This document shows, one piece after another, positions 15,169 to 40,923 of a DNA stretch of 42,261 nt. Source of the stretch: a bacterium. GTDB taxonomy: Bacteria; Verrucomicrobiota; Verrucomicrobiia; Limisphaerales; UBA11358. Position 1 is the first letter of the stretch, and every line of letters starts with the position of its first letter. The notes below the pieces were generated by a model. The model was not told where the DNA came from, did not search any database, and was given only the letters and a program-made list of their open reading frames with translations. The position numbers and the translations under genes are program-made. The stretch lies in assembly GCA_021813325.1 (NCBI GenBank), contig JAKALA010000033.1, positions 1 through 42,261 of the forward strand. Direction: 5' to 3'.

Positions 15169-15169
15169 G

Positions 15170-23271: not shown

Positions 23272-23412
23272 CACCCAGGCTGACGCACGAGCTGCGGGAT
23301 TATTACAGTCAGGCGCGGCGGTTCAGAAATGTGGTTGCGCATGGTTTAGGTCCCCGTCCGCCAGCGGCTTTCAGTGAGTGAAGCTGGCAGACGGGCATGA
23401 GGTGAATTGTGG

Positions 23413-24467: not shown

Positions 24468-25208
24468 CTAAAACCAGACGCGCAAGCCGACAATGAACCG
24501 GAACCCGCCGATGGATTCGCCTTCTGCGCGGGCAAAATCAGCGGTCTGGCCAAATTTTTCCTGATAGACGACGCCGATGTAGGGGGCGATTTCCCGGCGG
24601 ACCTCATAGCGCAGTCTTAACCCGGTATCGAGGTCGCTCACCCCGCTGCCGATTCCACGGTCCCGTTCACTGGCGGTGTAAAAGTTAACTTCGGCCTGGG
24701 GTTGCAGGACCAGTCGCTGTGTTAAATAAAGGTCGTATTGACCTTCCAGTCGCGCGGAGTAATGACCGCCGTCGCTGATGAAAACGTAGGCACCCGTTTC
24801 AAAAAACAACGGGGCCAGTCCTTCCACGCCGATTGTGCCATAGATGCGCGACGGCGCGGGATTGAAGTCATAACGCACGCCGCTCTGGAGATTGAAGTAT
24901 CGCGAGATCGCCCTTGAATACAGGCCCTGGGCTTCGGCTTCGTCAAACGCACCGCTGCCAAGGTTCAGATTGCCTTCGGCCTTGAACCAGGCGCGATTCA
25001 GATTGCCGCCATACCAGCCTTCCCCATCCCATCGGTAGATGTTTTCACCATTGCCGGTGCGCAGCTCGTTCTGGTCGAGAATTCCGTAACCAAACAGGCG
25101 GTTGTTGTTCATCGGCTGCGGCCAGTCCGGTTCGGTGGGCTGCTGACCGGCGATGGCCGCTACGGGCAGCAGTATTCCCAGCATCAATTCCAAGGTAATT
25201 ATTTTCAT
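24468..25208 (-). CDS. copB: CopB/PcoB outer-membrane copper resistance protein
   Basis: 246 residues. A signal peptide (about 1-20) is followed directly by the CopB domain: GYGILDQNELRTG, IYRWDGEGWYGG, then alternating beta strands of an outer-membrane barrel ending in GLRVWF, with a C-terminal aromatic as for barrel insertion. The Met/His-rich N-terminal region present in many CopB proteins is absent. CopB works with the periplasmic oxidase CopA in copper resistance. Its start lies 15 bases after the copA oxidase stop. Confidence 0.88.
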   Translation of the reverse strand: MKIITLELMLGILLPVAAIAGQQPTEPDWPQPMNNNRLFGYGILDQNELRTGNGENIYRWDGEGWYGGNLNRAWFKAEGNLNLGSGAFDEAEAQGLYSRAISRYFNLQSGVRYDFNPAPSRIYGTIGVEGLAPLFFETGAYVFISDGGHYSARLEGQYDLYLTQRLVLQPQAEVNFYTASERDRGIGSGVSDLDTGLRLRYEVRREIAPYIGVVYQEKFGQTADFARAEGESIGGFRFIVGLRVWF

Positions 25209-25223: not shown

Positions 25224-27098
25224 TTAAGCCACCACCGCCGAGGTGAACATGCCCGCTTCCATGTGATACAGCAGATGACAATGATAAGCCCAGCGCCCGC
25301 GTTCGTTGGCGGTGACGTAGTAATGCACCTTCTCGCCCGGTTTGACGCTGACCGTGTGTTTCAACGGACGCAGGCGATCCGGGCGGCTGTCCAGTTCGGT
25401 GAACAGCCCGTGCAGGTGGATGGGATGTTCCATCATCGTGTCGTTGATCAGCGTCACCCAGATGCGCTGGCCATAAGGATACCGCACCGGCTGGCTTTGG
25501 TCGTAGGTCTGCCCGTTGAATCCGAAAATGTAGCGGTCCATGTTGCCGGTCAGATGCAGCAACACCCCGGCATCGGGATCGCTTTCGTTGAAAGGAATGT
25601 TCTGCGGCCCTTCCGCCAAACGAACCAAGTCCGCGTAGCACAGCACCCGGCGACCGTTGTCGTTCAGCCCGTCACCGGGACGGTCGAGCCGCTCGGTGGG
25701 ATGCTGGGCAAGGTTGACCACCGCGGGTCCGAGCCGCAGATGCACGTCTTGCGGTTGCGGATAGGCAATCTGGCCGCTGGCGTTGGCCGTTGCGGGCTGC
25801 GGAATCTTTGGCCGCATGTGTTTCATGTTGCCCATGCCACCCATGCCGCTCATCTCGGAGGGCGCACCGGACATCTTCATTCCCGGCATCCCGGCCATGT
25901 CCATGCCCTTCATGTCTTTCATTCCGCTCATGCTGGACATGGCCATGCCCATGTCGATCATTGTGCGGCTGTAGATCGGGTCCATTGGTGGCACCGGCGC
26001 GGTCAAGCCTTCCCGAACGGCCAGCGTGGCGCGCGTGTAACCGCTGCGATCCATCGCTTGGGCGAAAATTGTGCAGGCGTCATCCTTCGGCTCGACGATC
26101 ACGTCATACGTTTCCGCCACGCCAATGCGGAACTCATCCACCGACACGGGTTCGACGTTACTGCCGTCGGCGGCGACCACCGTCATTTTCAAACCCGGAA
26201 TCCGCACGTCGAAATACGTCATCGCCGAGCCGTTGATAAACCGCAGGCGCAGGCGCTCGCCGCGTTTGAACAAACCAGTCCAATTGGCGGCGGGCGGCTG
26301 GCCGTTAATCAGGTAGGTGTAGGTGCCGCCCGTTTGCCGGCCGCTCACGTCGCTGATGTCGCGCGGACTCATCCGCATCATGCCCCAGGCCCAGCGGTTT
26401 TTGAGCGTGGCCGCCAGCCCCTTGGCCGAAGTGTCGTGGAAGAAATCGCCAATCGTCCGCTTGTGATAGTTGTAATAACCGTCGGTGGCTTTCAGGTGGT
26501 AGTAAACCGCCTCCGGGTCCTCGTCGGTCCAGTCGTTCAACATCACCACATAATCGCGGTCGGCGTGAACCGGGTCGGGCTGGCGCGGCTCGATCACCAG
26601 CGGGCCAGCCAATCCCGTCTGCTCCTGGAACCGGGTATGGCTGTGATACCAAAAGGTGCCGCTCTGACGAACCGGGAACCGGTAAACAAACGTCTCGCCG
26701 GGGGCGATGCCGGGAAAAGTGATGCCGGGCACGCCGTCCATCTGGTTCGGCACCAGAATGCCGTGCCAGTGGATCGAGGTGGAAGTGTTGAGCCGGTTGG
26801 TGACGCGCATCGTGACCGTATCGCCCTCGCGCCAGCGCAGCAGCGGTCCTGGCAGCAATCCGTTGACCAGCGTGGCGATGGTTGGTGTGCCGGTAATGTT
26901 GACCGCCGTCGGTTCAATCGCCAGATCGAACTCGGTGCCGGACAGCTCCGGCACGCCGTAGCGACCGCGTCGCGCGGTGGTTTCCTCCGCCCCGGCCAGC
27001 CAGGGGGCGAACGCGGCGACGACCGCGCCGGCCGCCAGACCTTGAACAAAGCGGCGGCGGGTGAATTGGAGAAGTTGGGGGTTCATGGGCAGTTTCAT
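25224..27098 (-). CDS. copA: CopA/PcoA-type periplasmic multicopper oxidase
   Basis: 624 residues. A twin-arginine signal (RRRFVQG at about 14-20) sends the folded protein to the periplasm. Copper-ligand motifs are HWHG and HSH in the first cupredoxin domain and HPIHLHG with HCHLLYHMEAGM at the end, giving type 1, 2 and 3 centres. A Met-rich insert (about 374-427, MxxM repeats such as GMKDMKGMDMAGM) may store or bind Cu(I). The enzyme oxidises Cu(I) in the periplasm and works with CopB. This copA is unrelated to the P-type ATPase that shares the symbol. ATG at 27086 is an alternative start. Confidence 0.92.
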   Translation of the reverse strand: MKLPMNPQLLQFTRRRFVQGLAAGAVVAAFAPWLAGAEETTARRGRYGVPELSGTEFDLAIEPTAVNITGTPTIATLVNGLLPGPLLRWREGDTVTMRVTNRLNTSTSIHWHGILVPNQMDGVPGITFPGIAPGETFVYRFPVRQSGTFWYHSHTRFQEQTGLAGPLVIEPRQPDPVHADRDYVVMLNDWTDEDPEAVYYHLKATDGYYNYHKRTIGDFFHDTSAKGLAATLKNRWAWGMMRMSPRDISDVSGRQTGGTYTYLINGQPPAANWTGLFKRGERLRLRFINGSAMTYFDVRIPGLKMTVVAADGSNVEPVSVDEFRIGVAETYDVIVEPKDDACTIFAQAMDRSGYTRATLAVREGLTAPVPPMDPIYSRTMIDMGMAMSSMSGMKDMKGMDMAGMPGMKMSGAPSEMSGMGGMGNMKHMRPKIPQPATANASGQIAYPQPQDVHLRLGPAVVNLAQHPTERLDRPGDGLNDNGRRVLCYADLVRLAEGPQNIPFNESDPDAGVLLHLTGNMDRYIFGFNGQTYDQSQPVRYPYGQRIWVTLINDTMMEHPIHLHGLFTELDSRPDRLRPLKHTVSVKPGEKVHYYVTANERGRWAYHCHLLYHMEAGMFTSAVVA

Positions 27099-27355: not shown

Positions 27356-27784
27356 TTAGGCGATAGCAGGCGGAGCCAGACTGCGGAACGCCGCGCCAAA
27401 ACACACTTCGGGCGTGAACACCCAATCCCGGTCCGGCGGTTGGCGGGAAATGAAGGTTGTCGGTGGGGTAATGGCAACTATTTGCCGGGTTGAAATAAAG
27501 TCCAGCGTGATAGCCGAACCAAAATCCGGCTTGATGAAAGTTGAACTTGCGGTGGCCGGGCAAACGGAATGAAGCGAAACGCAAAGCGAATCATCGTGAC
27601 GGTCGGAATCATGCGACGGGCTGTTCGTCGTCGCAGATTTATCCATGTGAGCCGTTTCAGCGTGAGAATCTTCCCCCAAACATTCGGTGGAGCAAAAGCC
27701 GACCGCCGCCAGCCAAACCACGATCAACGCCGCCGCACAGATGCGAAGCGATGGCTTCAGTTTATGTTGTCGCAAACCGATCAT
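27356..27784 (-). CDS. small His/Cys-rich secreted leader protein before copAB
   Basis: 142 residues. A signal peptide (about 15-35, ending FCSTECLG) is followed by a His/Asp-rich region (HAETAHMDK, HDSDRHDDSLCVSLHSVC at about 40-75), then a beta-like half ending WVFTPEVCFGAAFRSLAPPAIA. It is probably a periplasmic metal-binding protein of unknown role. The C-terminal W.F...AA...AP pattern loosely recalls the leader protein of the czc module at 17493-17879. It is preceded by a TTTGAGGG-N14-GGTGTATTA promoter motif (27879-27909), so is likely the first gene of the copAB operon and part of the ECF regulon. Confidence 0.6.
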   Translation of the reverse strand: MIGLRQHKLKPSLRICAAALIVVWLAAVGFCSTECLGEDSHAETAHMDKSATTNSPSHDSDRHDDSLCVSLHSVCPATASSTFIKPDFGSAITLDFISTRQIVAITPPTTFISRQPPDRDWVFTPEVCFGAAFRSLAPPAIA

Positions 27785-27878: not shown

Positions 27879-27909
27879 TAATACACCTCAATTTGAAAAA
27901 TCCCTCAAA
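27879..27909 (-). promoter_or_regulatory. ECF-type promoter, copy E (copAB operon leader)
   Basis: On the minus strand TTTGAGGG, 14 bases, GGTGTATTA; one base off the -10 of the other copies, same spacing. It ends 94 bases before the start codon at 27784. Confidence 0.6.
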
Positions 27910-28906: not shown

Positions 28907-31900
28907 TCAACTGGTCGGCTGTTCGATTTTCTTGGGTTCAACCGCTGTGAGACGCCGCGAGCGCCACAGGTAAAAGATGGCTGGATAGACCACCAACACG
29001 CAGATGGTGGAGGTAATGATGCCGCCAATCATCGGTGCGGCGATGCGTTTCATCACGTCCGCGCCGGCACCGTGGCTCCACAAGATTGGCGCGAGGCCGG
29101 CGATGATGACACACGCGGTCATGACTTTCGGGCGCAGCCGTTTCACTGCACCGTGATAGATCGCGTCGCGCAAGTCACCCACGGTGCGCATCAAGCCCTT
29201 CTGTTTCCATTCGTCATAAGCGAGGTCGAGATAGAGCAGCATGATGACGCCGGTCTCGGCGTCGAGTCCCGCGAGGGCGATGATGCCGACCCAGACAGCC
29301 ACGCTCAAATTGTAGTCCAGCAGGTATAGCGTCCAGAACGCGCCCACCAGTGAGAACGGCACAGCCAGCAGCACGATGGCGGTCTTGAGCAGCGAGCGCG
29401 TATTCATATAAATGATCAGCGAAATGAGGAGCAACGTGAGCGGCACCACCATCAGCAGGCGTTGTTTGGCGTGCAGCATGTATTCGTATTGGCCGCTCCA
29501 GAAGATGTTATAGCCGGGCGGCAGTTTGATCTGGCCGGTGGCGACGGCTTCGTTCACCGCGTGCATGGCGGCCTGGACGTAGGTGCCCACGTCCACGCCA
29601 TGAATGTCCACATACACCCAGTCGTTGGGCACGGCGCCCTCGGTCTTGATTGACATCGGGCCGTCCACGACTTTGATGCTGGCCAGTTCGCCAAGAGGAA
29701 TTTGAGCACCGGTCGGTGTGGGCACCACGATGTCGCGCTTGAGCGAATCCAGATCGGAGCGGAAATCACGGTCGTAACGGAGATTCACCGTGTAGCGTTC
29801 CAAACCTTCCACGGTGGTCGTCAACGGCATTCCGCCAAGCGCCACGGACAACACATCCTGCACATCGCCAACGGTCAGGCCGTAACGCGCAATGGCGTCC
29901 CGATTGATTTCAAATTCCACATAGCGCCCGCCCATCACGCGCTCAGCAAAGGCGCTGGCGGTGCCGGGCACCTGGCGGACGACGGCTTCGACCTCGGTGC
30001 CGATGCGTTCCAATTCCTTCAAGTCCGGCCCGGCTATCTTGATGCCCACGGGTGTTTTGATTCCGGTGGAAAGCATGTCAATGCGGGTCTTGATCGGCAT
30101 CGTCCACGCGTTGTTAAGCCCCGGTATTTGCACGGCGTCGTTCAACGCGGTCACCAGTTCATCCGGCGTGCGACGGCGGTGGGCGATGACGTTGCCGTTG
30201 TCGTCCTTGATGTCCACGGCTGGCCATTCCGATTCCGGGTTGAGGCGGATGGTGGATTCGATCATGTCCAGTGGCGCGGGATCGGTGGCCGTTTCGGCGC
30301 GGCCGGCCTTGCCAAAAACAGATTTAACTTCGGGAAACGACTTGATGATCCGGTCGGTGACTTGAATCAACTCGCGTGCCTTGGTTGGTGAGATGCCCGG
30401 AAAGGTCGTGGGCATGTAAAGCAGATCGCCCTCGTAAAGCGGCGGCATGAATTCCGAGCCGATGTTTTGATACGGGAAAAGCTTGCCAACCGAAAAGGCC
30501 ATTTCCTGCGCCCGACCCGGTGGCAGCCATCGTGCCACCAGCGAGTTCCACGGAAAAAACACCCACGCCACCAGAATGATGCCACACACCAGCACCAGCC
30601 AGCGGAACCTGATGGCCAGATCCACCACCGGTTTGTAGAGCCAGATCAGAAAGCGGTTGATGGGATTTTTTTCCTCCTTGGGAATTTTGCCGCGAATAAA
30701 CCAGCCCATCAGCACTGGTGCGAGGGTTATGGACAGCAACGCGGCAGCGGCCATCGAATAGGTTTTCGTGAATGCCAGTGGCTTGAACAGCCGGCCTTCC
30801 TGCTCCTGCAAGGTGAACACGGGCAGGAAGGAAACCGTAATGACCAGCAGCGAATAAAACAACGCCGGGCCGACTTCCACGGCTGCGTCGCGAATGATTT
30901 CCCAATGTGGTTTTTTGCCCTGGTCACGCTCCAGATGCTGGTGCGCGTTTTCAATCATGATAATGACCGCGTCCACCATCGCGCCGATGGCGATGGCAAT
31001 GCCGCCCAGCGACATGATATTGGAGCTGAGTCCCTGCCCGAACATGATGAGGAATGAAATCAGCACCGCGACCGGCAGAATGATGATCGCCACCAATGCG
31101 CTGCGCAGGTGCAGCAGGAATGCGAGACAGACAAGCGCGACCACGATGCTTTCTTCCAGCAGCTTTTCCTCCAGCGTTTTGACCGCCCGGTCAATCAACG
31201 CCGTGCGGTCATAGGTGACAGTGACCTTCACATCCGGCGGCAAAGCCTTCATCGACTGGTCCAGCCTGGCTTTCACGTCTTGAATCACCTGGTAGGCATT
31301 CGCGCCGTAGCGCACCACGACGATGCCGCCGACAGTTTCGCCGTCGCCGTTCAAGTCCGCGATGCCGCGACGCATATCGGGTCCGAACTGGATGTTTGCC
31401 ACATCGCGCAGCAAAATCGGCACCCCGTCCTTGCCGACACCGACGGCGACCTTCTTTAGATCGTCCAAATTCTCAATGTAACCCTTGACGCGCAGGATGA
31501 ATTCCCGCTCGGATAGTTCAATTGATCGCCCGCCAACTTCACCGTTGCTGCGCTTGATGGCCATGCTCACGTCCGACAACGAAAGGTTGTAGGCACGCAA
31601 CTTGGTCGGGTCCACCGTTACCTGATATTGTTTTACAAACCCGCCGATGGAGGCCACTTCCGAAACGCCCGGCACGGCGGCGAGTTGATATTTCAGATAC
31701 CAGTCCTGGATGGATCGGAGGTCGGCGAGGTTGCGGTTGGTGGAATTGATGGAATACATGAACGCCCAGCCGACACCTGTGGCGTCCGGGCCGAGTGACG
31801 GGGTGACGCTTTTGGGCAGTTCGCCGCTGATGCTGCTCAGATATTCGAGCACCCGGCTGCGCGCCCAATACGGATCGGTGCCGTCCTGAAAAATAACATA

Positions 31901-32179
31901 AACAAACGAATAGCCGTAGAAGGAGTAGCCGCGCACCACCTTCGCCTTGGGCACGGAAAGCATCTTGGTGGTGATGGGATAAGTGACCTGATCTTCGACG
32001 ATGTTCGGTGCCTGGCCTTCCCACGGCGTGTATATGATCACCTGCGTGTCGGACAGATCGGGAATGGCGTCGAGCGGGATGTGGCGGACGGCATAAACGC
32101 CGCTGAGCACCAGCGCCACCGTCGCCAGCATGACGACGAACTTGTTCTTGAGCGAAAAATCTATGATGCGCGTAAGCAT
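28907..32179 (-). CDS. cusA: CusA-type Cu(I)/Ag(I) RND efflux pump
   Basis: 1090 residues. The TM4 motif GGIAIAIGAMVDAVIIMIEN is that of CusA/SilA. Large periplasmic loops contain GDLLYMPTTFPGISP and TRIDMLSTGIKTP, which hold two of the three Met residues that form the Cu(I) site in E. coli CusA. The third, in the YGMTV context there, is Leu here (codon 29876-29878). It is proton-driven and works with CusB and CusC to expel Cu(I)/Ag(I) across the envelope. The start is 12 bases after the cusB stop; lgt follows. Confidence 0.92.
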   Translation of the reverse strand: MLTRIIDFSLKNKFVVMLATVALVLSGVYAVRHIPLDAIPDLSDTQVIIYTPWEGQAPNIVEDQVTYPITTKMLSVPKAKVVRGYSFYGYSFVYVIFQDGTDPYWARSRVLEYLSSISGELPKSVTPSLGPDATGVGWAFMYSINSTNRNLADLRSIQDWYLKYQLAAVPGVSEVASIGGFVKQYQVTVDPTKLRAYNLSLSDVSMAIKRSNGEVGGRSIELSEREFILRVKGYIENLDDLKKVAVGVGKDGVPILLRDVANIQFGPDMRRGIADLNGDGETVGGIVVVRYGANAYQVIQDVKARLDQSMKALPPDVKVTVTYDRTALIDRAVKTLEEKLLEESIVVALVCLAFLLHLRSALVAIIILPVAVLISFLIMFGQGLSSNIMSLGGIAIAIGAMVDAVIIMIENAHQHLERDQGKKPHWEIIRDAAVEVGPALFYSLLVITVSFLPVFTLQEQEGRLFKPLAFTKTYSMAAAALLSITLAPVLMGWFIRGKIPKEEKNPINRFLIWLYKPVVDLAIRFRWLVLVCGIILVAWVFFPWNSLVARWLPPGRAQEMAFSVGKLFPYQNIGSEFMPPLYEGDLLYMPTTFPGISPTKARELIQVTDRIIKSFPEVKSVFGKAGRAETATDPAPLDMIESTIRLNPESEWPAVDIKDDNGNVIAHRRRTPDELVTALNDAVQIPGLNNAWTMPIKTRIDMLSTGIKTPVGIKIAGPDLKELERIGTEVEAVVRQVPGTASAFAERVMGGRYVEFEINRDAIARYGLTVGDVQDVLSVALGGMPLTTTVEGLERYTVNLRYDRDFRSDLDSLKRDIVVPTPTGAQIPLGELASIKVVDGPMSIKTEGAVPNDWVYVDIHGVDVGTYVQAAMHAVNEAVATGQIKLPPGYNIFWSGQYEYMLHAKQRLLMVVPLTLLLISLIIYMNTRSLLKTAIVLLAVPFSLVGAFWTLYLLDYNLSVAVWVGIIALAGLDAETGVIMLLYLDLAYDEWKQKGLMRTVGDLRDAIYHGAVKRLRPKVMTACVIIAGLAPILWSHGAGADVMKRIAAPMIGGIITSTICVLVVYPAIFYLWRSRRLTAVEPKKIEQPTS

Positions 32180-32191
32180 GGGAATTCCTTG

Positions 32192-34054
32192 TTATCTCAC
32201 GGGGGTTTTCACCGGCACCAAGTTCATTTCACAAATCGGACACTTGCCCGGTTTGTCGGAAATCACTTCAGGGTGCATTGGGCAGGTGTAGAGTTGTTTG
32301 GCCGCCGAGTTTGTGGCGGACGAAGAATTGGTTGCGGGTGGCGCTGGATTGGTGCCTGCATCCGGCGCAGCCATTACCGGAATGAGTGTCATGCCGCAAA
32401 TGGGGCATTTGCCCGGCTTGTCTTCGTGAACGCTGTTGTGTTCCGGCATCGGGCACGTGTAGTAAAGCACCTTGCCGCCGGGCTGTAATTGCTTGAGTTC
32501 GCCGGGAGTCACCGGCACCAGCGCCATGCCGCAAATCGGACAGTTCCCCGGATGGTCATAGGTGATGGAAACGTGCGCCGGCATCGGACAGACATAGACC
32601 ATGCCTTCCTTCACCACGTTGGTGGACGTGGCCGGTTCCATGTTGGTCATGCTCGTAACTGCCGGCACGTTCACGTCGGCACCCGTTGGCCCGCGCATTT
32701 TTTGTATCGCCTCGCGCAACTGGCTTTCTGAATCGAGCATAAACTGGCCGGAAGTGACCACGCGCTCGCCATCCCGCAAACCACTGATGACTTGATACAT
32801 GTCATTTTCCGCCTGGGGACCGAGCACGACTGTGCGCGGATCAAATTTGCCGCCAGGCAGCGCGACGAAGACCGTGTTCTTTTCGCCGCTGCGGAGAATG
32901 GCCGAATCCGGCACCAGCAACGCGGACGGTGCCAGTTCAGAAATGATTTTCACCGAAACAAACATGCCGGGCTTGAGAAAATAACCGGGGTTTTCAAATT
33001 CCAGCCGCACGCGCGCCGTGCGCGTTTTTTCGTCCACGTTCGGATAAACATAGGTCACACGTCCGCGAAATTCGCGGTCCGGCAGCGACGATATTTTGAC
33101 CACCGCCTCCTGCCCAAGCCGGATGTAGGGTAAATCCTGTTCATAAACCTGCGCATAAACCCAGACAATGCCCAAGTCGGCAAGTTGATAGAGTTTCATG
33201 CCGGCATCCACCATCTGGCCTTCCACGACATTTTTCTGAATCACAAAGCCGTCAATCGGCGCGAGAATTTGCAACGTCTTGCGAGGCTTGCCGGTTTTGT
33301 CCAGATCCGCGACCTGCGCTTCGGAAATGTCGTAGAATTTCAACTTGTTCGCCGCCGATTCGCGAAGCACCGCCGCGCCGGGGTCGTTGGTGGAACTTTG
33401 ATTCAGCGTGAGCAGGTATTCAACTTCCGCACTATAAAGATCCGGCGAATAAATGGCGAACAGCGGCTCGCCGCGATGCACCAACTGGCCGGTGGCGTCC
33501 ACGTCCAGCTTCTCGATCCAGCCCTTGAACTTGGTGGTCACGTCCGCGAGCGTCGTTTCATTGTAATCAATCGTGCCGACTGTGCGGATGGTCCGGCGCA
33601 GTGGGCCACGCGCGATTTCCGTTGTCTGAATGTTCATCGTCTGGATGGTCTGGGGATCAACTGCGATGGCGGTAGATTCGGTGTCCCCTCCCGCATAGAC
33701 CGGCACCATGTCCATCCCCATGCTGTCCTTGGCCGGCACCGGGCTGGTTTCGCCCGCCTTCATCGTGGATTTGTAATAAAGAATTTTGTGACCGCCCGAC
33801 GCCGAGTCGGTGGTCGCATTTTTGTGGACCGCCTCCAGTTTCATGCCGCAGATCGGGCAGTTGCCGGGATGATCCTGAATGATCCACGGGTGCATGCCGC
33901 AGGTATAAAGCGTCTTGCTACCCGAGGCGGCGGGGTCGGCGGTTTTATCGGGTGCCTTGGAACAGCCCGCGACGAAAACTCCCGCGCCGACGATGGCCGT
34001 CAGTAAAAGTAACAGTGCTGCAATTTTTAATTTTAGTTTCATGGCATTTATCAT
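32192..34054 (-). CDS. cusB: CusB-type membrane fusion lipoprotein with five metal-binding knuckles
   Basis: 620 residues, far longer than CusB of E. coli (about 400). Lipobox VAGC with Cys31. The N-terminus has a knuckle TCGMHPWI...CPICGM (about 49-72) and a degenerate one KILYYKSTMKAG...SMGMDMVPVY (91-120). The membrane-fusion core follows, with lipoyl, hairpin and barrel domains. The C-terminal 134 residues carry three more knuckles: YVCPMPAHV...CPICGM, YTCPMPEHN...CPICGM and YTCPMHPEV...CPICEM. These heavy-metal-binding domains probably capture Cu(I)/Ag(I) for CusA. The start overlaps the cusC stop in ATGA. Confidence 0.9.
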   Translation of the reverse strand: MINAMKLKLKIAALLLLLTAIVGAGVFVAGCSKAPDKTADPAASGSKTLYTCGMHPWIIQDHPGNCPICGMKLEAVHKNATTDSASGGHKILYYKSTMKAGETSPVPAKDSMGMDMVPVYAGGDTESTAIAVDPQTIQTMNIQTTEIARGPLRRTIRTVGTIDYNETTLADVTTKFKGWIEKLDVDATGQLVHRGEPLFAIYSPDLYSAEVEYLLTLNQSSTNDPGAAVLRESAANKLKFYDISEAQVADLDKTGKPRKTLQILAPIDGFVIQKNVVEGQMVDAGMKLYQLADLGIVWVYAQVYEQDLPYIRLGQEAVVKISSLPDREFRGRVTYVYPNVDEKTRTARVRLEFENPGYFLKPGMFVSVKIISELAPSALLVPDSAILRSGEKNTVFVALPGGKFDPRTVVLGPQAENDMYQVISGLRDGERVVTSGQFMLDSESQLREAIQKMRGPTGADVNVPAVTSMTNMEPATSTNVVKEGMVYVCPMPAHVSITYDHPGNCPICGMALVPVTPGELKQLQPGGKVLYYTCPMPEHNSVHEDKPGKCPICGMTLIPVMAAPDAGTNPAPPATNSSSATNSAAKQLYTCPMHPEVISDKPGKCPICEMNLVPVKTPVR

Positions 34055-35427
34055 TTGAAAGTTTTAGTGGAAGTGGCTTTGTCCTTATCGTTGTCGGTGA
34101 ACAACGAAGTTCCCGCCGGCGGTTCCCCCGCGATCAACAGGGACAGTCTGGAAAGCACAATCTCGCGCTGGGTTCGCGCTTCGACTTCCGAAAGTTCGAA
34201 ATTCAACAGCGTCCGTTCCGTGTCCATCAGGTTGAAGAAATCAATCGTGCCAGAAAGATAACCGGCGCGGGCGATTTCCAGCGATTGTCGCGCTTTCGGA
34301 ATGAGCCGGTTTTCGAGAAGTTGGAGGTTTCGTCCAATTTCGCGGTAGGCGAAAGATTGCTCGGAAAAATCCACCGCCAGCGCAATTTGCGCCGAAGTCA
34401 GACGCGCCTTGGCGGCGAGTTCCTGCGCCTTGGCCTGCGCGATTTCCGCAGCGGTCTTGTCGCGCCAGATCGGCAGGGTCATGCCCCCGAGCGGGCGATA
34501 TACGATCGGATATGCTTTTACGTCCGCCATCAACCCCAGGCTGAAATCCGGCACGCGCGATTTGTAAGCCAGCGCAATGCCGGCTTCCGCCGCGCGCACG
34601 TCGGCTTCCATCGTTTTCAACTGCGGATTGCGGGCGAAGGCGATGCGCAGCAGTTCGTCGGAATCAGGATTGATAGCGGTCGTCTCCAATCGCGCCGGCA
34701 CGGGCGGGTCTGACTGGTCCGGTTTAATTCCGAGAGCGGCTTTGAACGACGCCAGCATCGGCTGGCGCGAGTCTTCCAGGTTGGCGATGTCAGTGCTGAC
34801 GCGTTCGCGCTCGATCTGGGCGCGCAGGACGTCCTGCAAAGTTCCCTTGCCGACTTCATTTTGCGCCCGCGCAATGCGTTCCAGGTCGTTGAGCAGCGAA
34901 AGCGTCTCGCGGTTGATCCGCAGCCGGTCGTCGAGAAAATAGAGTTCGTAGTAGGACTTTTTCAGATCGAACGCGGTTTGCAGCGCGGCAGTTTCAAAGG
35001 CGAAGTATTTGGTCCGGCTTTCAGCGCTGGCCACGGCGGCGCTGGCACGCAGCTTGCCGGGGCCGGGGAATATCTGCATGAATCCCGGCATGACAGTTTT
35101 GACTACGTCGGCGATGTCCGATTGAAAGGTCAGTTGCGGATCGGGCAGTGAACGCGCAACGGTTATGTTTTCCACTGATCCCGACCAGTCGAAATAAGTC
35201 GCCGCCACCTGTGGCTGGTTGAGCAGAGCGAATGCCATGTAGTTGCTTAATCCCGTATCCGGCGTCAGCTCCGGCAAGACCGGCGGCTGATTGTCCGGAC
35301 GATACACTTTTGTGACCGCGCCGAGGTCGCGGCGAGCCTGTTTCTCGCCCGGTGCGGGAATGCCCGTGCAACCAGCGAGCAACAGCACGCCGACGGCACT
35401 TGTAAAAATAATGATAACTGGCTTCAT
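34051..35427 (-). CDS. cusC: CusC-type outer-membrane efflux channel lipoprotein
   Basis: 458 residues from the ATG at 35427; an upstream GTG adds six residues before the signal and is unlikely. The signal ends in the lipobox LAGC (Cys at about 20), so the channel is lipid-anchored, as E. coli CusC is. Two TolC-type repeats follow, with long helices rich in Ala/Glu and IFPGPGK and LTLPIWRDKTAAEIA turns. It is the outer-membrane exit of the CusCBA system. A small Cys-rich secreted protein gene precedes it by 112 bases. Confidence 0.88.
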   Translation of the reverse strand: MKPVIIIFTSAVGVLLLAGCTGIPAPGEKQARRDLGAVTKVYRPDNQPPVLPELTPDTGLSNYMAFALLNQPQVAATYFDWSGSVENITVARSLPDPQLTFQSDIADVVKTVMPGFMQIFPGPGKLRASAAVASAESRTKYFAFETAALQTAFDLKKSYYELYFLDDRLRINRETLSLLNDLERIARAQNEVGKGTLQDVLRAQIERERVSTDIANLEDSRQPMLASFKAALGIKPDQSDPPVPARLETTAINPDSDELLRIAFARNPQLKTMEADVRAAEAGIALAYKSRVPDFSLGLMADVKAYPIVYRPLGGMTLPIWRDKTAAEIAQAKAQELAAKARLTSAQIALAVDFSEQSFAYREIGRNLQLLENRLIPKARQSLEIARAGYLSGTIDFFNLMDTERTLLNFELSEVEARTQREIVLSRLSLLIAGEPPAGTSLFTDNDKDKATSTKTFK

Positions 35428-35539
35428 AAATTCAAATACACACACACCTTACAAATACGATTACAAAAATTCACGGAAACAAAACGGGCGGTAGGACAAC
35501 ACCCACCCTGGAGACACCACGGGCGTGGAAGCGGGAAAA

Positions 35540-35884
35540 TCAGATGAGCCAGGCGCAATTTCGCATGTAAAGCGAAGCCTTGGTTGCTGTCGGCGGATGC
35601 TCAATGGAGGCAAAAACGGCATCCACTTCATTGGCAGGCGCAACCCAGACAGCAACATTGATAGGGGGAAGCGAAAGCTGTGTTTGACCGGCATTTTGAG
35701 CCGGAATCGCCGGCATGGGTTGCGAGTCAGACGGAGGTTTAGCCGAACAACACGCCATTTTAACACCATGCTGGCAACACGCTGGAACCGGCTGATTGGA
35801 ACAATTCGGCGCTGGCGATTGCGCGAACAGGAACGGTGTTCCCGCCAGCACAAAGCTGCAAATGATGGCCAACGCCAGTTTCAT
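35540..35884 (-). CDS. small Cys-rich secreted leader protein before cusCBA
   Basis: 114 residues. A signal peptide (about 1-22, ending FLFAQ) is followed by a Cys-rich part with NCSNQPVPACCQHGVKMACCSAK (two pieces, Cys-Cys pairs at about 36 and 45), a Pro/Gln-rich linker and a short C-terminal half. It probably binds Cu(I)/Ag(I) in the periplasm; the function is not known. Its place, first before an RND operon, is the same as that of the leader proteins at 17493 and 27356. A 5-bp hairpin CCACG-GG-CGTGG (35517-35528) lies between it and cusC. Confidence 0.6.
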   Translation of the reverse strand: MKLALAIICSFVLAGTPFLFAQSPAPNCSNQPVPACCQHGVKMACCSAKPPSDSQPMPAIPAQNAGQTQLSLPPINVAVWVAPANEVDAVFASIEHPPTATKASLYMRNCAWLI

Positions 35885-36032
35885 GTGATTGATTTTTGTT
35901 AACGTAGCAGCTTTTCAGCTAAACCTCTTTTACTCTTACTTTTAGCATGTCAATTGTTGAATTGCCGACTGCCCGCCAGCGACAGCACAACTCTGAGGTC
36001 GCGCATAATCAGGTCAAATCCCATTCGACGAT

Positions 36033-36569
36033 TTATTTTTGAATTTCCCCGCACTTGGACATGGCTTTTCCAAAATAAGGATTGTTCACATTTCCGTCCT
36101 TTTGCAGCCAACTGGCGCGTGCCATCGGGCAATACACCTTTGTGAAGGCGTCTTTGGCATTATGATCGGCGAGGTATTTGATGAGAGAATCACTCAATGG
36201 CTTGAAAGCGGCCCGTGCGGCTTTCAAGTCCGATGCCTTGGCCAGCGTTTCAGCCTGGGTCGCCACCTCTGCGGGCAGCATTTTCATGTCGTCGCCTTGA
36301 ACGGCTTTTGCAATCGCACCGGCGTTTTCTGCCACACCTTTAAGCGTATCGTTTGCCAGATCGGCTTGAACTGTCAGGTAATGGTCATAAACGGATTTCA
36401 CCGGCTCCATCAGAGCGGAATTGCTCGCCATTGCCATTGGTTGAGCCGAGCCACCACAGCATGATGGCATCGCGCAATCAGCCGCCTCGACTTTTGTGGC
36501 CAGCGTTGCAACGCCGATGACAGCCACTGTTCCGGCCAAAACGATCATGTATAAATTTGATTTTTTCAT
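36033..36569 (-). CDS. secreted DUF3347 protein
   Basis: 178 residues from the ATG at 36569. The signal peptide ends near VEAAD; then ADCAMPSCCGG and a Met-rich segment AQPMAMAS. The rest is helical, MEPVKSVYDHYLTVQADLA, with the late motif VYCPMARASWLQ...NPYFGKAMSKCGEI typical of DUF3347, a periplasmic domain found alone or fused to CusB-type proteins. The Cys and Met residues in that motif could bind Cu(I). An ECF-type promoter motif lies 48 bases upstream (36618-36648). It is probably a periplasmic partner of the cus system. Confidence 0.8.
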   Translation of the reverse strand: MKKSNLYMIVLAGTVAVIGVATLATKVEAADCAMPSCCGGSAQPMAMASNSALMEPVKSVYDHYLTVQADLANDTLKGVAENAGAIAKAVQGDDMKMLPAEVATQAETLAKASDLKAARAAFKPLSDSLIKYLADHNAKDAFTKVYCPMARASWLQKDGNVNNPYFGKAMSKCGEIQK

Positions 36570-36617
36570 AGTTAAGTTGATTCTTTTGTTGATGGTCTTC
36601 GGTTGACCGCACAAGGT

Positions 36618-36648
36618 TAATACCCCGACGGAACGGAAACCCCTCAAA
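36618..36648 (-). promoter_or_regulatory. ECF-type promoter, copy A (DUF3347 gene)
   Basis: On the minus strand TTTGAGGG, 14 bases, GGGGTATTA, ending 48 bases before the start codon at 36569. Confidence 0.7.
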
Positions 36649-36726
36649 TTATTTTTAAAATTTCGACACGACTATTTGTTGATTATGTTTCAGTCACGCG
36701 CAGCAAATAATGCTGCCAGGATAGCA

Positions 36727-37200
36727 TTATTTCAGCGGGGCGATTTCAACGGATTTCTCGAAACCGTTGTTTCTTCCTCTCAGTTCCGGGAATTGCTCTT
36801 TCATGCGGGGACTGTTGGCGAGTGCCTGGTTTTGCATCACTCGCGCCAACTCGGTCGTGGACGCATCCGACTTTGAAGCACTGGCGGATGGTGTCTGGCC
36901 GTAGAAAGCCAATTCTGGATACAGCTCGCGCACGCGAGGACTGTTGGCAAATGCAGGATTTTTGACAATTTCAGCCAATTGCGTTGCCTTGGCATCCGGT
37001 TTGGAAGAATCGGCGGTTGACGCCACACTCATACGCGCCAGTTCAGGATATTGTTCAATCATCCGTGGACTGTGAACCAACGCGCTGTTTTGCATTATCT
37101 TAGCCAGTTGGCTGGAGCCGTCAGCCGCCAGTAAATTTTGAGTTGCGGACAAAGTGACTGCGGCGGTCGCGCTCAAGAGAAGGATTTTTGTAGTTTTCAT
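36727..37200 (-). CDS. secreted protein with three 26-residue SPR repeats
   Basis: 157 residues. The signal peptide covers about 1-26. Three repeats spaced 43 residues apart (30-55, 73-98, 116-141) follow the pattern (T/S)(Q/E)LA.(I/V)..N.A..(N/H)SPR...(Q/L)(Y/F)PEL. Ser/Asp/Lys-rich linkers separate them, and the C-terminus is VEIAPLK. I know no such family. The SPR core and the APLK end are shared with the two proteins at 38448 and 38994, though the rest differs. A TTTGAGGG-N14-GGGGTATTT promoter motif (37266-37296) lies 65 bases upstream. Confidence 0.7.
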   Translation of the reverse strand: MKTTKILLLSATAAVTLSATQNLLAADGSSQLAKIMQNSALVHSPRMIEQYPELARMSVASTADSSKPDAKATQLAEIVKNPAFANSPRVRELYPELAFYGQTPSASASKSDASTTELARVMQNQALANSPRMKEQFPELRGRNNGFEKSVEIAPLK

Positions 37201-37265
37201 ATTTAGACTTTCATCGTTGTTGATTGTTTTTAGACGGGCGATTTTCGCCTGTCGTTTCTTTTAAT

Positions 37266-37296
37266 AAATACCCCGGCTGGCGTAAAAACCCTCAAA
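37266..37296 (-). promoter_or_regulatory. ECF-type promoter, copy B (SPR-repeat gene 1)
   Basis: On the minus strand TTTGAGGG, 14 bases, GGGGTATTT, ending 65 bases before the start codon at 37200. The leader between them contains a 9-bp hairpin (37233-37253) with one imperfect pair. Confidence 0.65.
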
Positions 37297-37442
37297 GTTC
37301 ACCGATGATTATCAGTGATCGCTTTTGCCCGCGTAGCGAAAAAATCACCACCAAGAACAAGTGTAGTGAAAGGAAACGCTCGTATTTGATTGAAAACACA
37401 GCGGAATCTGGCTTGGCATGTCAGTTGCGTAATGAGCGAATC

Positions 37443-38288
37443 ATGCGGCGTTTTTGGAGTATTGTTTTGCTATGTTTCGCGTTTATCAGCGGGGCAGAAG
37501 CCGCGTCTCCGTCTCCGGCTGACGCCATCCCCTTTGAATATGCCGAAGGTCTTTTGTGGGTGAAAATCCAGGTTTCGCAGTCAGATCGTCCGTTGAATTT
37601 TCTTTTCGATACCGGAGCGGAAATCAGCGTCATCAATGCCGACACGGCGGCTGCACTGGGTATTTCCGGCGGGAGAAAAATCCAGGTTCAGGGAGTGCAG
37701 GCGATCACGACCGGCCACTGGCCCGTCAGATTGGCGGCGCAGGCGGGCCGTGTTGTATTGCCGAAGAAATACTTGTCGCTGGACTTGAGCCGGCTGGCGG
37801 ATTCATGCAGTCGCCCACTGGATGGATTGCTCGGGGCCGATTTCATTCAAGGCAAGATTGTAGAAATTGATTTTGCGTCTCACCTGATCCGTTTCCACGA
37901 ACAGATTTCCCCCGCCAAATCAGACATTGATTTGCCATTGAAAATTTCAGGCAAATGTTTTTGTGTGCCCGTCCGCATTAACGGCAAGCAACAACAGTGG
38001 GTGAGATTGGATACCGGTTGCGCCACGGCGTTGCAATGGGTGACATCAGACCCAGGCGTTTGCACCAAATCGGAAAAACCGGCCATTGGGCTGGCGGGAC
38101 TTTCCATTCCCCAAACCCAAACCACGATTTCCCTCGGCGCAAAACAATTTGACCAAATTCCAACCGGTGTTCACAGCCGCGCCATTTTCTCCGGTGAAGC
38201 CGGATTGATGGGCAATGATTTATTAAGCCGGTTCAAGACGGTGACGATTGACACGAAATCAAATCGCGTCGTTATGAGACCGATGTAG
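37443..38288 (+). CDS. secreted two-lobed retropepsin-like aspartyl protease
   Basis: 281 residues from the ATG at 37443; the frame is open back to 37224 but the signal peptide (about 1-21, ending SGAEAAS) fixes this start. Two homologous halves: FLFDTGAEISVI (Asp56) with LLGADFIQGKIVEIDF, and VRLDTGCATALQW (Asp190) with LMGNDLLSRFKTVTID. Each half has the DTG active-site loop and the later (L/M)(L/M)G.D(F/L) turn of retropepsins, so one chain could form a full two-lobed protease in the periplasm. It is divergent from SPR-repeat gene 1. Its target is unknown; the neighbouring small secreted proteins are candidates. Confidence 0.75.
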   Translation: MRRFWSIVLLCFAFISGAEAASPSPADAIPFEYAEGLLWVKIQVSQSDRPLNFLFDTGAEISVINADTAAALGISGGRKIQVQGVQAITTGHWPVRLAAQAGRVVLPKKYLSLDLSRLADSCSRPLDGLLGADFIQGKIVEIDFASHLIRFHEQISPAKSDIDLPLKISGKCFCVPVRINGKQQQWVRLDTGCATALQWVTSDPGVCTKSEKPAIGLAGLSIPQTQTTISLGAKQFDQIPTGVHSRAIFSGEAGLMGNDLLSRFKTVTIDTKSNRVVMRPM

Positions 38289-38368
38289 TTTCTGCATTTA
38301 TTACGCAGCCTGTTATTTTTTGGTTAATTTAGCGTTCTATCAGCCTGACTTCATGTGCCTTACTGTTA

Positions 38369-38399
38369 TTTGAGGGTTTTCTAATTTGTCGGGGTATTA
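38369..38399 (+). promoter_or_regulatory. ECF-type promoter, copy C (SPR-repeat gene 2)
   Basis: TTTGAGGG, 14 bases, GGGGTATTA, ending 48 bases before the ATG at 38448. Confidence 0.75.
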
Positions 38400-38447
38400 C
38401 ATGTATCGGCAACGCAATGAAGCGGTGCCTCAACAAAAAAGTTCAAT

Positions 38448-38792
38448 ATGAAAACTAAAATCCTCGTCCTCGGTGCGGTTGTCACCGCGTTTGCCTTCAC
38501 GTCGTTTGCCGCCGAGCCGTTGCTCTCGCCGCGCGCCAAAGACAACCAAGTCAAAATCGTGAAAAGTTCGACGGAGACCCCGACGATCACGGTTGCCAAC
38601 GTTGATTCCGGCTCTGCGCTGCTTTCGCCGCGTGCCAAAGACAACCAAATCAGGGTTGTCAAGGGCATGAACAACGACGTCAATCCGGCGTTGGTATGCC
38701 AAAAAACCATGACCGGCAGCCCGAAAGCCGTGGCTGAATGCACCTCTCACACCACCATGCCAGGCTGCGTGACGGTAGCACCGCTGAAGTAA
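38448..38792 (+). CDS. small secreted SPR-repeat protein (SPR gene 2)
   Basis: 114 residues. The signal peptide is about 1-22 (TSFAAEP). Two exact LLSPRAKDNQ repeats (about 25-34 and 58-67) and a weak third, GSPKAVAEC (about 90-98), follow, then Cys107 and the end VTVAPLK. Cys84, 98 and 107 are absent from the paralogue at 38994. Function unknown; probably periplasmic or outer-membrane-associated. Its own ECF-type promoter and a strong terminator make it a single-gene transcript. Confidence 0.75.
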   Translation: MKTKILVLGAVVTAFAFTSFAAEPLLSPRAKDNQVKIVKSSTETPTITVANVDSGSALLSPRAKDNQIRVVKGMNNDVNPALVCQKTMTGSPKAVAECTSHTTMPGCVTVAPLK

Positions 38793-38825
38793 CCAGCGAA
38801 TAATCAAACGGATTACGGCAGAAAA

Positions 38826-38858
38826 ACGGGCGGCGGATAACATCCGCCGCCGTTCGTT
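38826..38858 (+). terminator. rho-independent terminator after SPR gene 2
   Basis: A 12-base-pair GC-rich stem with one bulged G (38826-38838 with 38842-38853), three-base loop AAC, followed by a T-rich stretch TCGTTTG. Confidence 0.7.
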
Positions 38859-38910
38859 TGCTTCCGCACATAGCCAGCGTATTAACCTGCCTTCGTATGG
38901 TTTGGAAATC

Positions 38911-38941
38911 TTTGAGGGTTTTCTACTTTGCCGGGGTATTA
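38911..38941 (+). promoter_or_regulatory. ECF-type promoter, copy D (SPR-repeat gene 3)
   Basis: TTTGAGGG, 14 bases, GGGGTATTA, ending 52 bases before the ATG at 38994. Confidence 0.75.
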
Positions 38942-38993
38942 CAAGTATCGGCAGCGCAATGAAGCGATGCCTTAACAAAGAAAGAAACTTAAA

Positions 38994-39344
38994 ATGAAAA
39001 CTAAAATCCTCGTCCTCGGTGCAGTCGTTACCGCGTTTGCCTTCACGTCGTTTGCCGCCGAACCGCTGCTTTCGCCGCGTGCCAAGGACAACCAGATCAA
39101 GGTCGTCACCAGTTCCGTTGACACACAAGGCGGCACCGTGACGTTCATTGCCTCGACCGCTCCGTCAACCTCTCCGGTGCTGCTCTCGCCGCGCGCCAAA
39201 GAGAACCAAATCAAGTTTGTCAGCAGTTCGATCAATACCCAGGGTGGCACGGTCACATATTTAACCCCGGCCTCATCCGCACTGCTCTCGCCGCGTGCCA
39301 AAGACAACCAGACCAAGCCGGTGACGGTCGCACCGCTAAAGTAA
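38994..39344 (+). CDS. small secreted SPR-repeat protein (SPR gene 3)
   Basis: 116 residues. The signal peptide is identical to that of SPR gene 2 for 22 residues. Three LLSPRAK(D/E)NQ repeats (about 25-34, 64-73, 98-107) alternate with TQGGTVT beta-like linkers; the end is VTVAPLK. No Cys. It looks like a short repetitive secreted protein, perhaps binding metal, protein or cell wall; I cannot assign a function. It is followed by a weak GGCGG/CCGCC hairpin (39404-39420) before the sigma-control genes. Confidence 0.75.
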   Translation: MKTKILVLGAVVTAFAFTSFAAEPLLSPRAKDNQIKVVTSSVDTQGGTVTFIASTAPSTSPVLLSPRAKENQIKFVSSSINTQGGTVTYLTPASSALLSPRAKDNQTKPVTVAPLK

Positions 39345-39403
39345 CCACTAAATGCTCAACCAGGTTGTCCTGAATTGAGAATCCTGATAATTAAGTAACG
39401 AGC

Positions 39404-39420
39404 GGCGGATTTAACCCGCC
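39404..39420 (+). terminator. possible weak terminator or leader hairpin
   Basis: GGCGG, seven bases, CCGCC, followed by a pyrimidine-rich stretch but no clear T-run. It lies 59 bases after SPR gene 3 and 21 before the anti-sigma gene. Confidence 0.3.
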
Positions 39421-39441
39421 TCCTCTCAACCAATCGAAAAC

Positions 39442-39744
39442 ATGAACTCCAATGATGCCAAATTGAGTAAGCTCCTGCGCCAATCGCGGGTGTCGCCATC
39501 GTTGCCGCCACGCTTTCAGGAAAATGTCTGGCGGCGGATCGAAGATGCCGAAGCCCCGGTTAAATCTGAATCGTGGCTCGATTCGCTGGCGGCTTTGATT
39601 CTGCGTCCAAAATTTGCATTCGCCGCCGCCGCCATATTGCTGTTTGCCGGCGGCTTGCTGGGCACGCACGAAGGATCCCAAATCGCGCGGCACGATGCAC
39701 AGATGCGCTATGTGGCGGCAGTCGCCCCAAATACGCTCCGCTGA
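39442..39744 (+). CDS. CnrY-like membrane anti-sigma factor
   Basis: 100 residues. A cytosolic N-terminal part (about 1-50) has charged helices with LSKLLRQSRVSPSLPPRFQENVWRRIED (two pieces), one membrane helix spans about 57-74, and a short periplasmic tail follows. Size, topology and position, directly before a CnrX-like sensor and an ECF sigma gene, match the CnrY/NccY type of anti-sigma factor that holds the sigma factor at the membrane. Sequence similarity of such short proteins is usually low, so the call depends on gene order. The next gene starts two bases after its stop. Confidence 0.7.
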   Translation: MNSNDAKLSKLLRQSRVSPSLPPRFQENVWRRIEDAEAPVKSESWLDSLAALILRPKFAFAAAAILLFAGGLLGTHEGSQIARHDAQMRYVAAVAPNTLR

Positions 39745-39746
39745 CC

Positions 39747-40238
39747 ATGAACCGTTCGCTTGTCATTCTGTTAAGCACCCTGGTTCTTGGCACAGCGGTT
39801 TTTGCCGGGGCGTATTTTATCAGCCAGCGCACTGCTGTCATGTGCTGTTCAAATCCGACGGATGACTTGAGCTGGTTGCGCAATGAATTTCACCTGAGCG
39901 ACGCGGACATGGCGCATATTCGCCGATTGCACGAAGGCTACATGCCGCAATGCGCTGAAATGTGTGCAAAAATCGCCCAAAAGAAATCTGAACTTGAAGT
40001 CGCGCTGGAAAACAACACAAACATCACGGCCGATGCCAAAACCAAATTGGTTGAACTTGGCGAGTTGCGCGCCCAATGCCAGGCGCAGATGCTTCAACAC
40101 TTCGTTACCGTCAGCCAGGCGATGCCCCCGGAACAAGGGCAGCGCTACCTTGACGAAATGAAACGCATCACGCTCGGCTTTCACGAACAGACCGAGCAGA
40201 CCATGTCGGGCGACATTGGCCATGAGCAGCAGCATTGA
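39747..40238 (+). CDS. CnrX-like periplasmic metal sensor
   Basis: 163 residues. An N-terminal membrane anchor (about 5-25) is followed by a helical periplasmic domain of the heavy-metal-resistance/CnrX type: DLSWLRNEFHLSD, IRRLHEGYMPQCAEMCAKI, then YLDEMKRITLGFHEQ. Possible ligands are His57, His62, Met66, Cys69, Met72, Cys73, Cys111 and His146, plus Cys33/Cys34 just after the anchor. CnrX of Cupriavidus uses His and Met for Co/Ni; the Cys-x3-Cys here suggests a softer metal such as Cu(I) or Ag(I), but this is inference. It overlaps the sigma gene by 17 bases. Confidence 0.8.
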   Translation: MNRSLVILLSTLVLGTAVFAGAYFISQRTAVMCCSNPTDDLSWLRNEFHLSDADMAHIRRLHEGYMPQCAEMCAKIAQKKSELEVALENNTNITADAKTKLVELGELRAQCQAQMLQHFVTVSQAMPPEQGQRYLDEMKRITLGFHEQTEQTMSGDIGHEQQH

Positions 40239-40812
40239 GGCCGACGCCCGCGACCGGGCGGACATGGAAAAACTGCAAGCCGGCCATGACGCCGCCCTCA
40301 ATGATTTGATGGAGCGCCATGCGGAACCGATCTTTCACTTTTTCTGTCGGATGACCGGCGATGTGGAGGACGCGAATGATCTCGCACAGGAAACCTTCGT
40401 TCGCATTTTCAAAGCACGCGACACCTATCGCACCGAACACAGATTCTCGACCTGGCTGTTCACCATTGCCGCGAATCTGGCGCGGAACCAATTCCGCTGG
40501 CGCAGCCGCCATCCAAATGTTTCTTTGGAAACTGAAGATGCAGAAACCGAGCAATCCCTCGGCAGCACCTTGCCGGCAAATTCACCGGCACCAAATGAAG
40601 AAGCTCTCGCGAGTGAACGCGCCAAAGCGGTGCGCGTGGCCGTGAATAATCTGCCGGCAGATTTGCGCGAGGCGATTGTGTTGTGCGAATGGGAGGAACA
40701 CAGCGTTGCCGAGGCCGCGAAGATTTTGGAAACGACGCCAAAAGCGGTGGAATCCAGGCTTTATCGCGCCCGACAGATTTTGCGCGAACGGTTGAAAAGC
40801 TGGTTGAACTAA
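40222..40812 (+). CDS. CnrH-like ECF sigma factor
   Basis: 196 residues from the ATG at 40222; a TTG at 40216 adds two. Region 2 is LNDLMERHAEPIFHFFCRM with DANDLAQETFVRIFKA and FSTWLFTIAANLARNQFR; region 4 is LPADLREAIVLCEWEEHSVAEAA with the HTH ending AVESRLYRARQ. It lacks the Cys tail of the other sigma factor in this window. Last gene of a Y-X-H type operon, it is presumably held by the membrane anti-sigma factor and freed when the CnrX-like sensor binds metal. I propose that it reads the TTTGAGGG-N14-GGGGTATTA promoters nearby; the operon itself shows no clear copy. Confidence 0.88.
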   Translation: MSSSIEADARDRADMEKLQAGHDAALNDLMERHAEPIFHFFCRMTGDVEDANDLAQETFVRIFKARDTYRTEHRFSTWLFTIAANLARNQFRWRSRHPNVSLETEDAETEQSLGSTLPANSPAPNEEALASERAKAVRVAVNNLPADLREAIVLCEWEEHSVAEAAKILETTPKAVESRLYRARQILRERLKSWLN

Positions 40813-40923
40813 ATTGATCCCCGCCATGTTGAGATTCCACAAATTGAAAAACTCATGGCTATCGGTATGAAGCAAATGCGTTCATCACGGGAGACAATTT
40901 TTCCATCCTTACCGATTAAAAGG

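Follow-up and report, generated by a model that had tools for sequence, protein, structure and literature searches.

A conserved two-box motif beside Y-X-H loci of Limisphaerales as the probable promoter of a CnrYXH-like ECF sigma factor

In the 42,261-nt stretch of Limisphaerales DNA analysed here, hereafter the window, a two-box motif, TTTGAGGG-N14-GGGGTATT, precedes a series of small secreted protein genes, is rare in the genome and is conserved across the order beside an operon of three genes, Y, X and H, for a putative membrane anti-sigma factor, a metal-sensor-like protein and an extracytoplasmic function (ECF) sigma factor. We consider it highly probable, judging from where the sites lie, that the motif is the promoter of H in a CnrYXH-like metal-sensing system, which would drive its own operon, the secreted proteins, and efflux and oxidation genes. 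We infer that H itself reads the motif, that transcripts read through the gene runs behind the sites, and that a metal is the signal, relayed by X and Y. The main argument for reading by H, comparative in nature, is the placement of the motif before H's own operon throughout the order.

Sites of the motif in the window and genome

In the form TTTGAGGG-N14-GGGGTATT, the motif has four exact matches in the window (Table 1) and none in 100 shuffled versions of it. These are the four copies that a sequence-only reading of this DNA had listed; their positions and strands are all correct, and the distance of 48-65 bases from motif to gene holds when measured from motif end to ATG. The YXH-type ECF sigma operon that it placed less than 1.5 kb away does lie there, Y starting 500 bases after the end of site 4. 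The list was nevertheless one short, since a window scan with up to three mismatches (0.10 matches expected for the whole scan) also returned site 5, which had been overlooked. All five sites are intergenic by gene calls made from lists of open reading frames (ORFs). The genome-wide search that had been proposed gave, at up to one mismatch, exactly these five places in the 4,283,325-base assembly (123 contigs), with none in a control read backwards. Three mismatches yielded 16 matches genome-wide and 14 in the control, which is noise level, and at two mismatches over the genus the control was also well filled; because looser scans fill the control too, all counts below rest on at most one mismatch, on a degenerate pattern or on weight matrices.

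Table 1 Features of the window
Feature	Position	Strand	Basis and remarks
Promoter site 1	36618..36648	-	exact match; 48 bases before ATG of P1
Promoter site 2	37266..37296	-	exact match; 65 bases before ATG of P2
Promoter site 3	38369..38399	+	exact match; 48 bases before ATG of P3; tandem duplication with site 4
Promoter site 4	38911..38941	+	exact match; ATG of P4 follows after 52 bases, Y after 500
Promoter site 5	27879..27909	-	one mismatch; 94 bases before ATG of a small gene, then copA, copB
P4 leader with conserved hairpin	38942..38991	+	stem-loop 38950-38971; same hairpin after site 3 (38400-38449)
Y, putative membrane anti-sigma factor, 100 aa	39442..39744	+	weak anti-sigma hit NF052375 (E 0.003), well short of the cut-off; conserved across 13 aligned loci
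X, metal-sensor-like protein	39747..40238	+	PF13801 Metal_resist 32.0 bits, cut-off 29.2; top fold matches CnrX
H, ECF sigma factor	40222..40812	+	Sigma70_r2 and Sigma70_r4_2 (Pfam); TIGR02937 above cut-off (NCBIfam)
P1, DUF3347 secreted protein	36033..36572	-	PF11827 33.2 bits, cut-off 25.5
P2, secreted repeat protein, SPR motifs, APLK ending	36727..37200	-	translation; nothing above the Pfam cut-off
P3, small secreted SPR-repeat protein	38448..38792	+	no Pfam match; secretion judged by eye from N-terminus
P4, paralogue of P3	38994..39344	+	53% identity to P3
Small secreted Cys-rich protein, between P1 and cusC	35540..35884	-	ORF list; no Pfam match; relatives in some cus loci
cusC-cusB-cusA type resistance-nodulation-division (RND) efflux genes	28907..35445	-	ORF list; named from reading translations, not from a Pfam scan
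Small secreted or membrane protein after site 5	27356..27784	-	ORF; no Pfam match
copA-type multicopper oxidase	25224..27098	-	three Cu-oxidase Pfam matches
copB	24468..25208	-	PF05275 265.9 bits

The sites could in principle be copies of a mobile or repeated DNA element, as might be suggested by sites 3 and 4, which sit in a tandem duplication spanning the promoter as well as the gene (78.7% identity over 315 bases); the four exact copies therefore amount to about three independent instances. In that pair the flanks agree at 30 and 43 of 70 letters and the spacer at 12 of 14, whereas in every other pair 12 to 28 of 70 letters agree per 70-base flank and 3 to 8 of 14 in the spacer, much as in unrelated DNA. 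The sequence-only reading had remarked that the spacers of the distant copies differ, as in a sigma-factor promoter rather than a copied repeat. Given in addition that the site stands before the same operon in 127 of 133 loci (below), we regard it as extremely improbable that the sites are copies of such an element and not promoters.

Conservation beside the Y-X-H operon and what it implies

The exact motif occurs in nine of 320 genomes of the order, all of them from the window's own genus. Around the genus matches 20 stretches were fetched, 18 of which carry X, Y and H near the motif, one H being cut by a contig end. Typically the site lies upstream of a P3-type gene that precedes Y, and closer to Y where the P3-type gene is missing, and there is often another site at the head of the cus side. 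Trained on 27 sites of the genus without those of the window, a weight matrix gave 80 sites scoring 14 bits or more in 52 loci, its training sites among them, and none on reversed sequence. Where the score is 18 bits or higher (71 sites), 28 precede cus-side genes, 26 P3-type genes, 8 Y directly, 2 P2 and 2 the gene that in the window precedes copA; of the 5 placed elsewhere, those in L117 and L158 also head the YXH operon. Sigma-type sites thus stand before RND efflux operons, as in the CnrYXH system, and would place these operons under the same control.

Beyond the genus, a degenerate pattern with at most one mismatch gave 77 matches in 50 of the 320 order genomes and 3 in the control. X, sought by profile (E at most 1e-12), is present in 123 of the 320, including 46 of the 50 with the motif and 77 of the 270 without it (Fisher 9e-18, a guide only, since the genomes are related), and 60 of the 77 matches lie within 6 kb of X. 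Of the 17 farther away, one is site 5 of the window, one was not fetched and 15 were examined: eight stand before genes of cus type or before a small leader gene of the same kind (a long open frame also encloses three of the eight, and one is 1.2 kb from cusC), and one precedes a Y cut by the contig end. The remaining six are taken up below.

For the order-wide comparison, 98 of the 101 places of X outside the genus were fetched, three contig-end fragments being left out. Y stands before X in 133 of the resulting 134 X loci, and H is nearby in 127, so that the gene order Y-X-H is itself conserved. L263, which overlaps another locus, was omitted, and 133 YXH loci were scored. A leave-one-out matrix reached 9 bits or more within 900 bases upstream of Y at 127 of the 133 loci (35 of 36 in the genus, 92 of 97 elsewhere), as compared with one locus on reversed and one on complemented sequence. 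The unrefined genus-only matrix, at 14 bits or more, recovered 32 of the 36 genus loci, most of which are training loci, and 33 of the 97 others, with none reversed. The deep consensus is tG[AC]GGG[AG]TT-N10-cGG[CGT]GTA[TA]TA. Because a fixed spacing was built into the matrix searches, the spacing was freed in a separate test, in which the two boxes of the genus-only matrix were scored apart at shifts of -5 to +5 in loci reaching 10 bits. The original spacing was best in 46 of 49 loci outside the genus and in 33 of 34 within it; on reversed sequence two loci qualified, neither at that spacing. Among 46 loci of the X profile every named group is verrucomicrobial (subdivision 3, Limisphaerales, Pedosphaera, one Opitutaceae), six being named only 'bacterium'.

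A conserved two-box motif upstream of a sigma operon is what is expected of an autoregulated ECF promoter. As it lies just before Y, or before the secreted-protein gene that precedes Y, it is probable that the sigma factor controls the operon that encodes it. The link between this sigma factor and the promoters, initially a conjecture, now has strong support. The notion of a regulon of small secreted proteins fares less evenly: its ECF-promoter part stands, while its scope is too narrow, since further sites head cus-type efflux genes and, by position, the regulon also takes in the sigma operon and copA-copB. Overall it resembles a resistance regulon of copper/silver type, headed by small secreted proteins.

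Conservation and co-occurrence alone do not separate a promoter from an operator, at which some conventional regulator, be it CsoR, MerR or a response regulator, would activate or repress the cluster, YXH included, while the housekeeping sigma factor transcribes it. The geometry of the sites makes this improbable in our view. They are directional: at 8 bits over the 900 bases before Y, a forward match is present in 35 of 36 genus loci and one on the opposite strand in 15 of 36, many of the latter heading divergent cus-side genes. Moreover, the two boxes keep their spacing, in the manner of a -35/-10 pair, and the site mostly lies 40-60 bases before the ATG of the secreted genes. Another ECF sigma factor might read the sites instead, such as the second one in the window (22726-23274, minus), which lies inside the same metal gene cluster. 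At E 1e-30, however, this gene is found in the window's genome and in none of the other 48 of the 49 genus genomes, while the motif spans genus and order and tracks YXH; the candidate was rejected, and we hold this explanation to be very improbable.

Several observations weigh against H as the reader of the motif. X occurs in the 77 motif-negative genomes mentioned above, whose promoters the degenerate pattern misses and the refined matrix mostly finds. The loci are related, so that neither the Fisher test nor the matrix counts represent independent trials, and the 9-bit cut-off doubled as the inclusion cut-off of matrix refinement. Two good genus matches, in L063 and L067, have no X nearby, and six of the 15 unlinked matches examined fall inside open frames for which no connection with metals is evident, these last being probably chance. 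A paralogue of H encoded elsewhere in the genome (contig C116, below) could read the same sites. The -35 box lacks AAC and, in the window, the -10 box lacks CGT, which an excerpt of PMC8103513 gives as early ECF hallmarks that are no longer defining; CGT is found at -10 mainly in deeper relatives, where position 25 is C. Finally, the metal of the proposed system, most likely Cu+ or Ag+, is deduced from neighbouring genes. As a separate observation on L063 (also L185; G230:C106:439-469), its match stands before a transposase-like frame close to where the contig ends, and this contig carries no X.

A further point that fell short concerns covariation between sigma factor and promoter. Position 25 of the motif, in the -10 box, is G/T or C according to whether residue 89 of H is N or D/S, with 113 of 115 loci concordant. 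In an alignment with E. coli sigma-E this residue (window 40486-40488) falls in region 2, opposite the second Asn of NTAKN, and the excerpted text of PMC8103513 has loop L3 in region 2.3 of ECF factors fix the -10 base. Yet the association comes down to two independent concordant pairs, with none against and two without a difference in H (p 0.5), which speaks against it as proof of direct reading by H; in that role it was rejected, and it is kept as a hint. The choice of A or C at motif position 5 was likewise considered as a specificity switch between paralogues and rejected, as both letters occur within L072 and within L116 and the tree requires at least 16 state changes.

Proteins, gene runs and the leader hairpin

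Y is short with one hydrophobic stretch. Its profile gave no anti-sigma match among solved structures and no CnrY up to E 10, CnrY being short and divergent. The predicted model of X has a mean predicted local distance difference test (pLDDT) score of 72.8; against solved structures (VIA-align) its best eight rows are all CnrX (Z 9.0-9.9), followed by ZraP at 8.8, scores that helical bundles can reach by chance, and the best Foldseek hit is weak (E 0.07). The match of the model to CnrX of Cupriavidus is therefore suggestive. In 19 aligned X proteins His62, Cys69, Cys73, Cys111 and Met115 are invariant and His118 is nearly so. CnrX binds nickel and cobalt mainly through histidine, with methionine and glutamate; the cysteines of X may mean that it takes another metal. 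H, of 196 residues, has Sigma70_r2 at 29-96 and Sigma70_r4_2 at 136-185, so that it consists of regions sigma-2 and sigma-4 alone with a short linker, as is characteristic of ECF factors. A search for H in a plasmid collection at 1e-30 found none. The same genome has a second YXH-cus locus on contig C116 (G000:C116, L066), whose H is 65% identical and which has its own TTTGCGGG-type sites; one of these, L066:11599 (minus), precedes a 505-aa reading frame. Cross-talk between the two sigma factors is possible.

The arrangement of genes and sites suggests the following working scheme. In the absence of metal, the membrane anti-sigma Y and the periplasmic sensor X would hold H; metal bound to X would release H, which would then bring RNA polymerase to sites of the form TTTG[AC]GGG-N14-GG[GT]GTA[AT]TA. 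H would turn on its own operon, P4-Y-X-H, via site 4, as well as the small secreted proteins P1-P4 and the efflux and oxidation genes, that is, cusCBA possibly via site 1 and copA-copB possibly via site 5. From strand and spacing, each gene run behind a site would form one operon, and site 1 may thus serve the whole run from P1 through the gene at 35540 to cusCBA. Relatives of the window's cusCBA genes lie near YXH in many genus loci, and relatives of P3 stand before Y in most.

P2, P3 and P4 have in common signal-peptide-like starts (judged by eye), two to three SPR motifs and the ending APLK. This ending is found in 11 of 31 listed proteins with SPR or TPR, and also in a distant protein of L165 that has no SPR. 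Between sites 2 and 3 lies a gene for a secreted, retropepsin-like aspartic protease (37443-38288, PF13650), which also adjoins the P3-YXH operon in L058, L059, L060 and L074; a role for it as a partner in regulated proteolysis is possible. A Cys-rich secreted protein with a CPVSGEKLG...LCCxxC stretch, resembling YHS/TRASH domains only weakly and below cut-off, sits behind the same promoter before many cus genes (L059, L062, L065, L072, L109 and others). Elsewhere in the window, 8215-23271 holds metal genes with no site nearby, namely a NicO transporter, two P-type ATPases, a second RND efflux set and FTR1.

The leaders of P3 and P4 share a hairpin. Classed by distance only, the 73 leaders with a site over 330 bases ahead of Y, where a P3-type gene would fit, have a mean folding z of -2.43, with 45 below -2; the corresponding values are -0.73 and 9 for 54 leaders with the site within 330 bases of Y, and -0.27 and 11 for 127 control stretches upstream of the promoter. 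In the window, good folding is seen in the leaders behind sites 3 (z -2.7), 4 (-2.1) and 2 (-5.2), but not in those behind sites 1 (-1.3) and 5 (0.0). A hairpin in all transcripts of the regulon is unsupported, 22 cus-type leaders having a mean z of -0.52 with three below -2. The stem was aligned in 27 leaders, comprising 26 of 28 genus leaders (two near-copies left out; loci L058 to L123) and that of window site 3. Its eight pairs are 79.6% paired (71.6 in shuffles) with 25 cells changed on both sides (9.8 in shuffles), and none of 500 shuffles is as high on either count; the number of pairs with a change on both sides is a weaker result, reached by 20 of 500. Slid versions of the stem are at most 43.1% paired, a comparison favoured by the stem having been read from the same sequences. 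RNAalifold keeps five of the pairs at only -2.9 kcal/mol. MAFFT appears to misplace two rows (L119, L123), to the detriment of the stem. Rfam, run on 36000-40900, gave no family beyond chance (one match, E 0.77).

The plainest reading of the hairpin would be a 5' stem that protects the mRNA, and a DNA operator is less likely since it is the pairing, not the sequence, that is conserved. More speculatively, P3 could be a working part of the circuit, buffering metal in the periplasm or acting on X-Y as a co-sensor, with the leader hairpin as a dedicated RNA element that sets its amount; we think this less likely than not. If true, P3 and its hairpin would add a new layer to the CnrYXH scheme. The arrangement has been seen only in Verrucomicrobia, P3 having been searched for within the loci fetched.

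Relation to known ECF systems

The type of circuit is already known, and novelty appears to lie in the promoter code and the secreted proteins, as well as in the hairpin. No paper listed in searches of an open-licence library describes, in its title or the opening of its abstract, this system or its promoter in Verrucomicrobia, and the motif may stand under some ECF group in the large reclassifications. The proposal supplies a promoter code that experiments could test, in an ECF sigma system found across a verrucomicrobial order known here mostly from metagenome assemblies, and would unite cus and cop genes with two secreted protein families that have no Pfam match in one regulon. It would also describe a promoter of ECF type whose -35 box has no AAC and whose -10 states follow a residue of the sigma factor, and it brings to light a conserved leader hairpin.

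The closest parallel is CnrYXH with cnrCBA of Cupriavidus metallidurans, which has the same gene order and the division proposed here into membrane anti-sigma factor, periplasmic sensor and ECF sigma factor; X, like its counterpart there, is a Metal_resist protein. In the portion of PMC9045368 consulted, the promoters cnrYp and cnrCp depend on CnrH, the sigma factor thus driving both its own and the efflux operon. The systems nevertheless differ in several respects. H is nearer to sigma factors of the sigma-E, SigW and sigma-H types, at 79-85 bits, than to CnrH, which with 55 bits comes ninth among the 19 listed; the efflux genes are of CusA/CopA type, and the neighbouring genes suggest copper or silver rather than nickel or cobalt; X carries the conserved Cys69, Cys73 and Cys111; and a small secreted protein gene often opens the operon, with sites before further leader proteins.

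Among autoregulated ECF factors, RpoE and SigW similarly have a two-box promoter before the sigma operon, with a T-rich stretch after the -35 core, as in the GGAACTT given in an excerpt of PMC8103513. Their -35 core is GAAC, whereas here it is G[AC]GGG, and the -10 box here is GG[GT]GTA in the 27 genus training sites and GGCGTA in many deeper relatives. CorE of Myxococcus xanthus is likewise an ECF sigma factor over copper genes, but it senses copper itself through a Cys-rich domain and has no linked anti-sigma factor, as far as the excerpted part of PMC3107203 goes, unlike the loci described here, in which Y almost invariably precedes X and H is nearby.

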